The translations under genes and the position numbers were made by a program. Below, one piece after another: positions 9,915 through 17,324 of a stretch of DNA of 43,031 nucleotides. Source of the stretch: Elusimicrobiota bacterium (GTDB taxonomy: Bacteria > Elusimicrobiota > Elusimicrobia > FEN-1173); NCBI GenBank assembly GCA_022703335.1, contig JAKLDV010000008.1:1-43031 (forward strand), given 5' to 3'. Within the stretch, counting starts at the first letter, position 1; each line of letters opens with the position of its first letter. Under the pieces are notes generated by a model. That model searched no databases. It was not told the origin of the DNA and was given only the letters and a program-made list of their open reading frames with translations.

Positions 9915-9939
9915 TTTAAGCGCTAAGGAGGATTTGATT

Positions 9940-10962
9940 ATGAATCGTTACGGCATGAAAAAATTCGTCGCGTTTGTTCTTGCGATGGGCCTCGTTCTGC
10001 CCGCCTGCAAGAGCAACAACGTGTCTTCCAAGATCCTCGGCGGCGCCGATGTCGCTACCGGCACCCCGACACTCTCGACCGCTCTCGCCGGACTGACCTC
10101 GTACATCTCCGGGGTTTCCAGCGGCGGAACCAACGCGGTGCCGCAGAACGGAACCATCCCCTCCGGCACGGCGGCGGGGCTCAACCCGACCGTCGCCGGC
10201 AACACCGGCGTCATCAACGGCGGGTCTTCCCAGTTGTCGCTGGTGACAGCGCAGGCGTTTCGTTACTGTAACGTGGCGGTGTCCAATCTCGCGGCGGCTC
10301 CGGCGGCCGCGGCCCCCTCGGCGGCGCAGTCCATCGCGGGCTATTATCTGTTGGCGCTTCCCGCCGATGCCACCACGCTCACCCTGGACTTGAACATCGG
10401 CCAGGCCCTGCCCGGCTCCTTCCATTGTTTCGTGACACTGCAGGACGCCAGCGGCAACATCGGGCCCATCGAGGACATCAGCATCACCCAGGTGGCCACG
10501 GTGGGCACCGGGGACGTTCAGGTCAGTCTGTCGTGGGACACCAAGGCCGACATCGACCTGCATGTGGTGGACCCCAACAACGTGGAGGTCTGGTACGGGG
10601 ACAAAGCCCCGACGACCACCAAGGGGACGTTGGACCTGGATTCCAACGTCGGGTGTCCCAGCACCGGCATCAGCAACGAGAACATCACCTGGCCGACGGG
10701 CACGGCGGTGGCCGGCACCTACATCGTTCGGGTGGACAACTACAACGATTGCAGTCTGGGAACCGCGTCCAACTGCGTGATCACGGTGCGCGTAGCCGGG
10801 GTCACCAAAACCTTCGCCAAAACCTTCGCCGTCAATTCGGACGATGCGGGCGGGGCGGGGTCCGGTGTGGAGATCTGCCGGTTCACCAACGCCGGGGCGT
10901 TTTCTGCGCCGCAACCGAACCTGACGCGGTCCATCGGCACCAAACCCGCGGTGTGTCAGTAA
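9940..10962 (+). CDS. YfaP/DUF2135-like lipoprotein
   Basis: The 340-residue product has a lipoprotein signal (FVLAMGLVLPAC, lipobox LPAC). A long Gly/Ser/Ala/Thr-rich region of low complexity follows to about residue 180. Residues about 185-280 form a DUF2135 (YfaP-type) domain: VQVSLSWDTKADIDLHVVDPNNVEVWYGDK, then TLDLDSNVGC and AGTYIVRVDNYNDC. The acidic Asp-Ile-Asp and Asp-Leu-Asp residues could bind calcium. Such domains are found in secreted surface proteins of unknown role. The gene has AAGGAGG before ATG 9940 and ends at a strong terminator. Confidence 0.8.
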   Translation: MNRYGMKKFVAFVLAMGLVLPACKSNNVSSKILGGADVATGTPTLSTALAGLTSYISGVSSGGTNAVPQNGTIPSGTAAGLNPTVAGNTGVINGGSSQLSLVTAQAFRYCNVAVSNLAAAPAAAAPSAAQSIAGYYLLALPADATTLTLDLNIGQALPGSFHCFVTLQDASGNIGPIEDISITQVATVGTGDVQVSLSWDTKADIDLHVVDPNNVEVWYGDKAPTTTKGTLDLDSNVGCPSTGISNENITWPTGTAVAGTYIVRVDNYNDCSLGTASNCVITVRVAGVTKTFAKTFAVNSDDAGGAGSGVEICRFTNAGAFSAPQPNLTRSIGTKPAVCQ

Positions 10963-13453: not shown

Positions 13454-13482
13454 TTGACAAAGCACCGTTTTAAGGGGATACT
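13454..13482 (+). promoter_or_regulatory. Promoter of the TPR-FliF/FliG-MotAB operon
   Basis: TTGACA (13454-13459) and GATACT (13477-13482) have a 17-bp spacer. The expected start near 13489 leaves only about six bases before ATG 13495, so the first message would be nearly leaderless. Confidence 0.65.
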
Positions 13483-13494
13483 TAACACGGATAA

Positions 13495-14274
13495 ATGCCT
13501 ATTTTCCTGTCCGGAGGGGATTTAAAGTCTCGTCGGAGGGGCGTGGCGCTTTGCGTTCTGGGGGGATTCCTCTTGGTTCTTTGCGAGTGTTGCGCGCCGA
13601 TGGCGACGTCTGCCCGTTCTTCGTCGCAGATCGACAAGGAGCGGGCGATGGAGTTCTATAAAGACGCGCGCGGATACGTGAATACCTACGAGTTCGCGGC
13701 CGCGGTGGGCAGCATCCATCAGGCGGCGCAATTCGATCCGAGTTCGGTCGAGATCAAGGCCTACGACCGGCGGCTGGAACGCGTTCTGGAACTGTTCGAC
13801 GACCGCATCCGCCAGGAGAACCAGAGCCATGTTTTTTTGGAGGGCCTGAGCAAATACATCGCCGCCGAATACCAGACGGCCCTCCTGTGTCTGGGCAGCG
13901 CCCTCGGCAACTGGCCGCTGGACGACCGGCTCCAGCGGTTCATCGGGGAAATCGAGAAGGAGACCGGATACAAGCTCGACCGCAACAACGTGCGGCCCAC
14001 GCCCGAACTGGTTTCCTTGAAGCTGGAAAAGGCGTCGGAGAATTTCAACGAGAACCGGCTCACCGAAGCGATGATCCTCTGCCGGGAAGTGATTTTGCTG
14101 GAGCCGGACAACGCCCTGGCGTATAAACGGATGGGGTCCATCCATTTCGCCCAGGGGAATTTCGAGCAGGCCCGCGATCTCTGGAGACAGGCGCTGGCCT
14201 TGGAACCGGAGGACGAGGAATTGACTCGGTTCGTTCAATTGGCCGAAGAGAAAATGAAACGGGGCAAAAAATGA
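13495..14274 (+). CDS. TPR protein, probable lipoprotein, first gene of the motor operon
   Basis: The 259-residue product has an N-terminal hydrophobic segment ending in Cys residues (LGGFLLVLCECC), consistent with a lipoprotein or secreted protein. TPR-like helix pairs follow: one near residues 50-90 (AMEFYKDARGYVNTYEFAAAVGSIHQAAQFDPSS), one near 115-145, and two clear repeats near the C-terminus (ENRLTEAMILCREVILLEPDNALAYKRMGSIHFAQGNFEQARDLWRQALALEPED). TPRs bind other proteins, so a scaffold in the envelope is likely. The stop overlaps the next start by four bases (ATGA). ATG 13495 is chosen because it lies just after the promoter and includes the signal; no good ribosome site is visible. 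Confidence 0.75.
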   Translation: MPIFLSGGDLKSRRRGVALCVLGGFLLVLCECCAPMATSARSSSQIDKERAMEFYKDARGYVNTYEFAAAVGSIHQAAQFDPSSVEIKAYDRRLERVLELFDDRIRQENQSHVFLEGLSKYIAAEYQTALLCLGSALGNWPLDDRLQRFIGEIEKETGYKLDRNNVRPTPELVSLKLEKASENFNENRLTEAMILCREVILLEPDNALAYKRMGSIHFAQGNFEQARDLWRQALALEPEDEELTRFVQLAEEKMKRGKK

Positions 14275-15830
14275 AACGACCCCTTGTCGTCCTTTCACTG
14301 CTGGGGGCCCTCGCCGCCGTCGCGGCGGCGGGTTCCCTTGTGGAGGACGAGATCCGTTTCAGCCGGGACCTGCAGACGCGCATCCAGGTGGCGTTGGACC
14401 AGTTGATGGGGGAACGGAAGGCCATCGCCCTGGTGAACGTGCAGTTGGAGATTTCCGAAGAGATGAAGTCCCGGTTGGACAAGGCCCTCGGAGCTTCGCA
14501 GCCCCAAAAAACCGTCGCGGTGACGGAGGGGGCCAAATGGACCTCGCCGGCGACGTCCGCGGCGTCGTCGGGGCTGCCGGGGTTCCCCGCCAAAGTGCAG
14601 AAGGAGCAGGGCACGGCGACCGTGATCTCCGTGGCGCCGCCCACCCAGGCTTGGGACCCGGCGGCTTTCCTCTCGGCCGGGATCGCCATCAAGAAAGTCT
14701 ACGTCAAGGTGCTGCTGGACAAAGGGCTGTCGGCGGGCGCGGAGAACACCGCCCGCGCGGTGGTGGCGAATTTCGTCGGCATCGATCCGGCGCGCGGGGA
14801 CGTGATTGAGATCGCGCGGATACGCATGCCCTCCAAGTTCGAGGAGGCCCTGCAGAACCCGGCCCTCCTGTCGCCGATATTGCAGAAAGCCGCTACCCTG
14901 TCCGTGGTGATGTTGACGGCCATGTGTTTCTTCGTCCTGGGGCTGGCGGCGCTCGCCACGGTGCGGCGTTCGGTGGATCGGCTGGCCTCCGCGGTGCGGA
15001 CGCTCCAGCCGGTGGATACCCACGCGGCCTTGACCGGTCCCGACGGCAAGCAGCCCCTCCTGACGGCGGAGCTCGCCTCCCCCGCGGACCGTTCCGCGCC
15101 GGGGATGCCCGAGCGGACCCTGCCGCACTACCCCGAACTCACTTTCGAGGTGCCCGCCGACAAGGTGGCCTACCTGCTGGAATTTTTGTCGAACGAGGAG
15201 ATGGAGACCGTGGCGCTGGTGTTGCAGCACCTCACGCCGTCGGCGAAGTCGGCGTTTCTGGCGTTGCTCTCGCCGGAACAGGCGGGCGAGGTGGTGATGG
15301 CCATGTCCCGGCCGTCGGTGGTGGATTTGGAGAAACTGCAGCGGCTCAAGGAAGCCGTGGAGAAGCACATCCGGGGCAGCACCGGCGGGGTGCAGGCGGT
15401 GGTGGACATGCTCAACGCCTCCGGTCCCGGCATGCGCCGCCAGCTCCTGGAGTCCATCACGCAGAAGGACCCGGCGCTGGGGACGGCGGTTCGGGAACGG
15501 ATATTCATCTTCGAGGATCTGGACAAGCTCAGCCAGCAGGAGCTGGCGCGGGTGGTGTCCAACGTGCAGCTGTCGGATCTGGCGGTGGCCATCCTCAAAC
15601 AATCGGCGGAACTGAAAACGCGCATCAAGACGGTGCTCCCGGAGCTGACGTGGAAAGTGCTGGAAGAGGAATCTCAGCACCGCGGGCCCTCGTCGACCGA
15701 CGAAAAGATCGGGGAGGCGCAGGACCGTGTCCTGCGCACCGTGTACAAGCTGATCCGTGAGGGGCAGATCTCCCCGTCCTTCGTCCGGTTGCCGGGTCGG
15801 TTGGGCGTTCCGGCCGGGAAATCGGCGTGA
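14271..15830 (+). CDS. FliF C-terminal domain fused to FliG (membrane rotor protein)
   Basis: The 519-residue product joins two flagellar rotor parts. After a signal or membrane helix (about 4-21), residues about 25-190 match the YscJ/FliF C-terminal ring-building region: a DLQTRIQVALDQLMGERKAIALVNVQLEIS segment, then IKKVYVKVLLDKGLS and the FVGIDPARGDVIEIARIRMP signature. A second membrane helix spans about 208-230. Residues about 295-505 match FliG middle and C-terminal domains (HLTPSAKSAFLALLSPEQAGEVVMAM, VRERIFIFEDLDKLSQQELARVVSNVQ, then EKIGEAQDRVLRTVYKLIREGQI). The topology puts the ring domain in the periplasm and FliG in the cytoplasm, as in a real C-ring. The first two FliF ring domains and FliG-N are missing. 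MotA follows 13 bases later. Confidence 0.85.
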   Translation: MKRPLVVLSLLGALAAVAAAGSLVEDEIRFSRDLQTRIQVALDQLMGERKAIALVNVQLEISEEMKSRLDKALGASQPQKTVAVTEGAKWTSPATSAASSGLPGFPAKVQKEQGTATVISVAPPTQAWDPAAFLSAGIAIKKVYVKVLLDKGLSAGAENTARAVVANFVGIDPARGDVIEIARIRMPSKFEEALQNPALLSPILQKAATLSVVMLTAMCFFVLGLAALATVRRSVDRLASAVRTLQPVDTHAALTGPDGKQPLLTAELASPADRSAPGMPERTLPHYPELTFEVPADKVAYLLEFLSNEEMETVALVLQHLTPSAKSAFLALLSPEQAGEVVMAMSRPSVVDLEKLQRLKEAVEKHIRGSTGGVQAVVDMLNASGPGMRRQLLESITQKDPALGTAVRERIFIFEDLDKLSQQELARVVSNVQLSDLAVAILKQSAELKTRIKTVLPELTWKVLEEESQHRGPSSTDEKIGEAQDRVLRTVYKLIREGQISPSFVRLPGRLGVPAGKSA

Positions 15831-15843
15831 GCGGAGAATTTTT

Positions 15844-16629
15844 ATGGACCTGATGACAATCGTTGGACTGCTGGGCGGCGTGACGGTCATCGTGTTCGGG
15901 ATGATCCAGGGACAGAGTTGGGCGTCCTTCCTGAACGCACACGGGGTGGTGTTGGTGTTGGGCGGCACCATCTTCGCCACCATGATCAACTCCTCTGCCC
16001 GGGAACTGTGGGACGCGTTCCTGGCGGGGTTGTCCCTCTTGAAGACGCAATCCACCCCTTCGCCGGAGCAGAGCATCTCTCAGTTGGTGCGTCTGGCGCA
16101 GAAGGCCCGCCGCGACGGGGCCATGTCGTTGAAGGACGAGGCGCGCCACGTCGGCGACGGTTTTTTCTCCCGTGCCATCCAGGTCAGTCTGTCCAGTCCC
16201 GATCAGAAGACCGCCTACGAGATCCTGGCCAAAGAGATCAACATGATCCGCGCCCGGCACCGCGAGGTGGGCAACCTGTTCCGCACCATGGGTCTTTTGG
16301 GGCCGATGTTCGGACTTCTGGGGACGTTGATCGGCATCGTGTCGGTTTTGAAGAACATGTCCGATCCCCGCAGCGTCGGTCCGTCCATGGCCCTGGCGTT
16401 GTCGTCCGCGTTCTACGGGATCCTCTTCGCCAACCTGATCTGCGTGCCGGTGGCCGGCAAGCTGCGGATGCGGAGCCTGAACGAGGCCATCGCGAAGGAA
16501 CTCATCGTGGAAGGCATCCTGGCCGTCGTCTTCACCAATGAGATGCCGCTCTTCATCCAGACCCGCCTCCACGCCTACCTGCAGAAACGGCAGAACGGGG
16601 AATCCTCCCCGCCGGAGAAAAAAGCCTGA
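15844..16629 (+). CDS. motA: MotA-type stator protein
   Basis: The 261-residue product has two membrane helices near the N-terminus (about 4-20 and 33-50). A cytoplasmic loop holds LAQKARRDGAMSLKDEA, the position of the charged residues that touch FliG in flagellar MotA (R90 and E99 here). Two further helices follow in GLLGPMFGLLGTLIGIV and ALALSSAFYGILFANLICVPVAGKL. Length and order are those of flagellar MotA, not of the shorter ExbB/TolQ proteins. With MotB it would form a proton or sodium channel that drives the FliG-bearing protein encoded just before it. It overlaps motB by one base (TGATG). Confidence 0.93.
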   Translation: MDLMTIVGLLGGVTVIVFGMIQGQSWASFLNAHGVVLVLGGTIFATMINSSARELWDAFLAGLSLLKTQSTPSPEQSISQLVRLAQKARRDGAMSLKDEARHVGDGFFSRAIQVSLSSPDQKTAYEILAKEINMIRARHREVGNLFRTMGLLGPMFGLLGTLIGIVSVLKNMSDPRSVGPSMALALSSAFYGILFANLICVPVAGKLRMRSLNEAIAKELIVEGILAVVFTNEMPLFIQTRLHAYLQKRQNGESSPPEKKA

Positions 16630-17324
16630 TGCAGATTTTCCGCGAGCGGGAGGAGGACCTCGAGAACCTTCTGAACCGTGGCGCGTTGTGGGCCGTGACC
16701 TACGGCGACCTCATGTCCTATCTGATGATTTTTTTCCTCCTCCTGTTCGTTTTTTCGCTCACCGGCGGCACGGCTTTCGAGGAAGGGATCTCCATCATCC
16801 AGGAATCCTTCGGCGGCCAGGTGAACCAGGCGCGCATCGACCGGGCCATTCGGCGGAGCCAGGAGGAGATCATCGCCAAAGACGTGCGGCAGGCTTTCGT
16901 CGACCAGGGGTTGCAGCAGATGACGGGCGTGGAGATTTCCGAGGACCGCATCCGCATCACCCTGCGCGAGCCCATCCTCTTCGCCTCGGGCAAGGCTTTC
17001 CTGAAACCGGAGGCGTTCCCGATATTGCACGGCGTGGCCGAGATCATGCGGAACCAGCCCCACCCGCTGATGATCGAAGGCCACACCGACAACGTGCCGG
17101 TGGGGATCCGGAACGAATACGAATCCAACTGGCAGTTGTCCATGGCGCGCGCCTACACGGTGATACGGTATTTTGTGGACGTGGAAGGGCTCGATCCGAA
17201 GAGATTGTCCGGGGTGGGGTACGGCGAGTATCAGCCGGTCGTGCCGAACACGTCGACGGACAACCGGGCGCGCAACCGCCGCATCGACATCAGCCTGTTG
17301 CGTTCCGCCGCCTCGGCCTGGTGA
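16629..17324 (+). CDS. motB: MotB-type stator protein with OmpA-like domain
   Basis: The 231-residue product has one membrane helix with the motif WAVTYGDLMSYLMIFFLLLFVFS; D27 is the ion-carrying aspartate. A short linker follows. Residues about 110-228 form an OmpA/MotB peptidoglycan-binding domain (ILFASGKAFLKPEAFPIL, IEGHTDNVPVG, LSMARAYTVIRYF, LSGVGYGEYQPVVPNTSTDNRARNRRIDI). It is shorter than most flagellar MotB proteins, mainly in the linker. It anchors the MotA channel to the cell wall. It is the last gene of the operon and ends 19 bases from the convergent metF gene. Confidence 0.94.
   Translation: MQIFREREEDLENLLNRGALWAVTYGDLMSYLMIFFLLLFVFSLTGGTAFEEGISIIQESFGGQVNQARIDRAIRRSQEEIIAKDVRQAFVDQGLQQMTGVEISEDRIRITLREPILFASGKAFLKPEAFPILHGVAEIMRNQPHPLMIEGHTDNVPVGIRNEYESNWQLSMARAYTVIRYFVDVEGLDPKRLSGVGYGEYQPVVPNTSTDNRARNRRIDISLLRSAASAW

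Follow-up and report, generated by a model that had tools for sequence, protein, structure and literature searches.

The window, that is, the whole 43,031-nucleotide stretch of DNA that was analysed, contains a compact operon joining parts of a flagellar rotor with a stator, and the question it raises is whether these genes belong to a flagellum or to another machine driven by MotAB. The operon consists of four tightly packed genes on the forward strand (13495-17324), as the open reading frame coordinates confirm: a TPR protein with an N-terminal signal or anchor (13495..14274; Pfam TPR_2, 2e-9), a 519-aa fusion of FliF (RBM3 and collar), a transmembrane segment and FliG (middle and C-terminal domains) (14271..15830), a MotA stator subunit of the flagellar, PomA-like type (15844..16629), and a MotB stator subunit with a transmembrane Asp27, a plug region and an OmpA-like peptidoglycan-binding domain (16629..17324). 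The TPR and fusion genes overlap by ATGA, a 13-base gap separates the fusion from motA, and motA and motB overlap by TGATG, as the first-pass annotation had described. The single promoter proposed in that annotation holds only in part: a weak promoter-like site, TTGACA-17-GATACT, is present on the forward strand (13454..13482) with 10 of 12 consensus matches, but this is close to chance, by which 0.7 such sites would arise in the region. The TPR protein had also been read as a lipoprotein, which is not supported: its LCECC makes a poor lipobox, and in its TPR-only homologues the signal peptide is of the ordinary kind and lacks a lipobox. The operon is flanked by no barrel, surface-protein or Che gene. 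Elsewhere in the window, a gene upstream of groES (9934-10962) encodes a 342-aa protein with a lipoprotein-like start and no family match at E<=0.05.

The fusion protein shows three Pfam domains: YscJ_FliF_C at residues 137-184 (26.6 bits, cut-off 23.8), FliG_M at 302-369 (47.1 bits) and FliG_C at 394-500 (65.3 bits). Since the FliF match is short, this part was examined further by profile and structure comparison. An hhalign comparison of the periplasmic parts of 34 fusions with flagellar FliF gives a probability of 98.7 and an E value of 1.8e-16; the span corresponds to E. coli FliF 230-433, which is RBM3 plus the collar, and PG and RGD motifs are common to both sides. The alignment reaches no other part of FliF, RBM1 and RBM2 being absent from the fusion, and PF01514 (YscJ_FliF), present in the flagellar FliF of genome G032, does not figure in the family matches listed for these fusions. 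FliG_N is also absent. The AlphaFold2 monomer of the window fusion, predicted from the 34-sequence alignment, has a mean pLDDT of 78.5, and a Foldseek search against the PDB places FliG structures at the top (E 4.1e-11; T. maritima FliG_C with an rmsd of 1.1 over ~90 residues), followed by FliF S-ring/RBM3 structures (E ~1e-3). Two hydrophobic segments, 6-24 and 210-228, agree with the topology first assigned, with the FliF C-terminus and FliG both cytoplasmic; among the fusions the segment near residue 210 is kept and the N-terminal one usually too, and flagellar FliG has no hydrophobic segment near 210. The reading of the protein as the C-terminal domain of FliF, followed by a membrane helix and by the middle and C-terminal domains of FliG, is thus borne out by Pfam, profile-profile and structure comparison, and the profile searches, named beforehand as a way in which it could fail, support both FliF RBM3 and FliG_MC.

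The MotA of the window gives 76.6 bits with Pfam MotA_ExbB and 191.9 bits with the PomA model, versus 16.8 with TolQ, and matches PomA in the PDB at E 4.7e-41. The MotB shows the Pfam domains OmpA (66.7 bits) and MotB_plug (39.6 bits), and its key Asp, the ion carrier in such proteins, is indeed found at residue 27, within YGDL. Two other loci (L051:10541-11284 and L060:3439-4194) show paired MotB proteins in which one partner has Asn for the channel Asp (YGNMM and YGNLM), hinting at uneven MotB pairs.

FliG_C meets MotA via charged residues, and this interface is partly altered. In the alignment, FliG R281 and the EHPQ motif, which we take to be the FliM-contact region of FliG, are missing in 34/34 fusions, R297 is lost in all of them but one ambiguous row, and positions 288 and 289 are mostly acidic or Q. 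The MotA proteins linked to fusions are basic at 88 or 89 in almost every row, and their position 96 (E98 in E. coli) holds E, Q, R or K; the window MotA keeps the R88/R89 basic pair and has K for E96. In E. coli, FliG R281 pairs with MotA E98 (PMC12505986). Since R281 is replaced in all fusions, torque coupling cannot match the flagellar one in detail, and on this alignment the FliG-MotA contact chemistry is partly rewired.

The assembly that contains the window (2.66 Mb, 268 contigs, 96.2% complete, phylum Elusimicrobiota) shows FliG_C at four places: contig C247, which holds the window, C74, C51 and C209. Three of these fusion paralogues are complete and that of C51 is cut by the contig end. 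No FliF_C match is found in this genome outside the window at E<=0.001, and in the other fusions the FliF part shows only in the profile comparison. MotA/ExbB genes are found at seven loci, of which four belong to fusion-type systems (the window, C209, C51 and C267), so that four flagellar-type MotA genes stand alongside four fusions. Contig C267 starts with an FlbD-like end, followed by a MotA gene (product 75% identical to that of L076) and a MotB gene; as this is the order downstream of class-A fusions, C267 is probably the missing half of the C74 system. The search of this genome for FlhA gives no match, and the FliM/FliN C-terminal domain (PF01052, FliMN_C) is likewise absent from it, the control genomes being positive in both cases. 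On these searches and that for FliF_C, the second condition named in advance as refuting the reading, a complete flagellar gene set elsewhere with a separate fliF and fliG, did not come about. Loss of the presumed FliM-contact motif fits this absence of FliM.

Among 295 Elusimicrobiota genomes, 120 contain FliG_C and three contain FlhA, which is missing from 118 of the 120 genomes with FliG_C. FlhA occurs with flagellar FliF/FliG loci in G032:C2, G246:C208 and G215:C78 (L080, L086, L081 and L202), where a binning error is possible, and in G215 a flagellar FliG and a fusion are found side by side. A megablast of the G032 MotA against plasmids gives no match. From these loci, flagella seem to exist within Elusimicrobiota, in contrast with published statements that the phylum lacks flagellar genes (PMC11257099, PMC7031533). 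Relatives of the fusion were sought among 84,980 species with an alignment of the 640-aa class, carrying the patterns of that class only; the best 79 loci include entries titled Elusimicrobia, Elusimicrobiota, Endomicrobia or plain 'bacterium'. A scan of genome contigs with the single window protein finds no relative, and viral contigs contain none. The fusion is likely restricted to Elusimicrobiota. In the FliG tree the window protein groups with L065 and L066 (support 100/100). The same tree parts the fusions from flagellar FliG at only 80/95 support and has no outgroup, and the suggestion that the operon is an ancestral form of the flagellum is neither shown nor needed.

The neighbourhoods of 40 fusion loci show a recurrent set of partners. 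Most fusions have a MotA gene nearby, together with a PorV-TPR or a TPR protein gene. The order TPR - fusion - MotA - MotB - MotB is found in L053, L054 and L085, and a version with barrel and TPRs in many more; the search for the same order in related genomes, proposed with the first annotation, thus succeeds. MotA and MotB are also linked to the fusion in the clade of the window (L065, L066). The barrel with C-terminal TPRs belongs to the PorV family (NF033709), with 112-124 bits in the two tested proteins (cut-off 90) and weaker scores in others. Giant proteins encoded upstream of fusions show C-terminal tails like FlgD_ig/Por_Secre_tail (type-IX-like, CTD), mostly below cut-off. Other neighbours are coiled-coil proteins of about 700-2100 aa, FlbD (73 aa, 77.8 bits) beside MotA, one or two MotB proteins, histidine kinases and response regulators. 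Over ~200 aa the TPR protein of the window aligns with PorV-TPR proteins at their residues ~330-545 (best E 4e-25), and it matches a TPR-only protein at E 3.5e-26; by these alignments it is a homologue of the TPR half at the C-terminus of the PorV-TPR outer-membrane proteins adjoining other fusions, so that the window operon has the look of a reduced form that lacks the barrel. The linkage of the motor with a PorV-family barrel and CTD cargo is found in relatives and in contig C74 of the window's own genome, not in the window operon.

Chemosensory genes adjoin fusions at three loci. In C209, genes for CheA, CheB, CheR, CheW and an MCP adjoin those of the fusion and MotA and run divergently from them, on the opposite strand, and this cluster also contains a gene for a HEAT-repeat protein with nine matched stretches (L008:5147-7108). 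L195 shows on one strand PorV-TPR, fusion, coiled coil, CheY-like, two CheW, CheR, CheB and CheA. L196 shows CheB, CheA, an actin-like ATPase, two CheC, CheD, response regulators, a CTD protein, PorV-TPR, fusion and coiled coil, the Che genes sharing a same-strand run with the fusion. The actin-like ATPases (FtsA/MreB/PilM-like) adjoining CheA in these clusters are located at L195:3-989 and L196:3578-5806. This co-location at three loci is suggestive. CheW is found in 33 genomes of the phylum, 28 of which have FliG_C (Fisher p 5e-8, uncorrected for shared ancestry and genome size). A strict link between fusion and chemotaxis was considered and rejected, as only 28/120 FliG_C genomes have CheW; since it is missing in the other 92, chemosensory control is a variant and not the rule.

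The best fit to these data is the reading first put forward for this operon, a MotAB-driven machine that is not a flagellum. FliF RBM3 builds the S-ring of the flagellum. By its periplasmic RBM3/collar the fusion would polymerise into an inner-membrane ring whose cytoplasmic face bears the middle and C-terminal domains of FliG. Stators of the composition MotA5B2, anchored to peptidoglycan by MotB, would push on the charged helix of FliG_C, so that the ring is turned or strained. The periplasmic TPR protein, in most relatives fused to the PorV-type barrel, would connect the ring with the outer membrane and with surface proteins that bear type-IX-like C-terminal tails. We consider it reasonably probable that such a non-flagellar ring moves parts of the envelope or surface, most likely in signal-controlled surface (gliding) motility or in the traffic of surface adhesins. 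Several points stand against this proposal: Elusimicrobiota isolates are reported as non-motile (PMC11257099), most fusion genomes lack CheW, R281 is replaced throughout, the window operon has no adjoining barrel, surface-protein or Che gene, and the structure prediction is of a monomer.

The motor could instead power secretion or outer-membrane assembly, as a type-IX-like counterpart of GldLM with display of CTD proteins as its main product and no cell movement. The PorV-family barrels adjoining most fusions and the CTD-tailed giant proteins upstream suit such a role, and so do the SprA-like frames (~1800 aa, with similarity below the curated cut-off) found in 254/295 genomes, for example in G247:C95, G267:C7 (L201) and G000:C26 (L198); the genome of the window shows a partial TIGR04189 match, below cut-off and at a contig edge. 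A type-IX-like secretion pathway is likely present across the phylum. However, PorV-family genes occur in 271/295 genomes and SprA-like genes in 254, versus at most 120 with the fusion, and both are present even in a gut family almost without fusions. This far wider distribution indicates that the pathway is present independently of the motor, and we therefore prefer motility or surface traffic over secretion as the main use, with moderate confidence; the Che genes at three loci also point to taxis. Secretion as the main product is rather unlikely. The GldLM system of type IX secretion and Bacteroidota gliding has in common with the Elusimicrobiota loci a MotAB-like motor and a PorV-family barrel with CTD-tailed surface proteins nearby, but the Elusimicrobiota system has a FliF/FliG ring and a flagellar-type MotAB, and its PorV/SprA-like genes occur without the fusion too.

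A less probable alternative is that the complex is an envelope sensor and not a motor, its attached histidine kinases reading stator ion flow or ring strain. Histidine kinase genes do lie beside many fusions, and in the clade of the window L197 and its close relative L066 have HisKA-HATPase fused in frame to FliF_C-FliG_M-FliG_C (L066:5591-8110, L197:8023-10506), the domains having been identified by search in L197. Yet most fusions are not fused to a kinase, and the coiled-coil, barrel and surface-protein partners exceed the needs of a sensor; we regard a sensor as improbable. The idea that the operon is left over from a lost flagellum and decaying could draw on the FlhA and flagellar FliF/FliG loci of G032, G246 and G215, but is very hard to reconcile with four paralogues and four matched MotA genes in one genome, a gene order conserved across the phylum, the absence of disrupted frames among the aligned loci, and the presence of both flagellar FliG and fusion in G215. 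Among relatives, dN/dS is about 0.09-0.28 in the computable fusion pairs, a set outside which the window gene falls, its nearest relatives being too distant; values well below 1 indicate constraint and argue against decay. Least credible of all is that the operon provides the rotor of an ordinary flagellum, the remaining genes of which fall in the few percent missing from this assembly, fragmented as it is, given the lack of FlhA in 118/120 FliG_C genomes and of FliMN_C here, and the loss of R281 and EHPQ in every aligned fusion.

With the flagellar rotor and stator the operon shares FliF RBM3/collar and its second transmembrane segment, FliG_M, FliG_C, the cytoplasmic position of the FliF C-terminus and FliG, a PomA-type MotA with a basic pair, a MotB with Asp and OmpA and, in relatives, FlbD beside MotA. 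It differs in that the rotor is one polypeptide, without RBM1/RBM2, FliG_N, FliM/N or FlhA and without R281 and EHPQ, and in that the partners in relatives are TPR, PorV and CTD proteins instead of rod, hook and filament. The Agl-Glt system of Myxococcus (AglRQS-Glt) likewise brings together MotAB homologues, TPR proteins, partners in the outer membrane and signal control; to our knowledge it uses no homologue of FliG or FliF. Its AglRS proteins fall in the class of generic (GIT) transporters (PMC12505986), whereas the MotA proteins linked to fusions match flagellar models. The window MotB resembles ZorB of the Zorya system (83.7 bits), a general MotB resemblance, but the window MotA has no ZorA match in PADLOC and Zorya ZorAB includes no FliF/FliG ring. 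One survey does not decide what orphan rotor genes do (PMC12199754). No description of the system was found in the open-access literature, to which the search extended, so that a prior description elsewhere is possible.

FliG rotors are known from flagella. Here the rotor part of the flagellar motor is apparently used without a flagellum, with several paralogous systems in one genome, which would give the FliG rotor a second role in nature. Whether these loci form a distinct family of rotary machines of Elusimicrobiota, often several per genome, that moves outer-membrane and surface proteins and in some lineages is under chemosensory or kinase control, allowing directed movement without flagella, seems to us evenly balanced. 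If so, one polypeptide and MotAB would offer a minimal two-part rotor for structural work, and a phylum described as non-motile would gain a possible route to movement.
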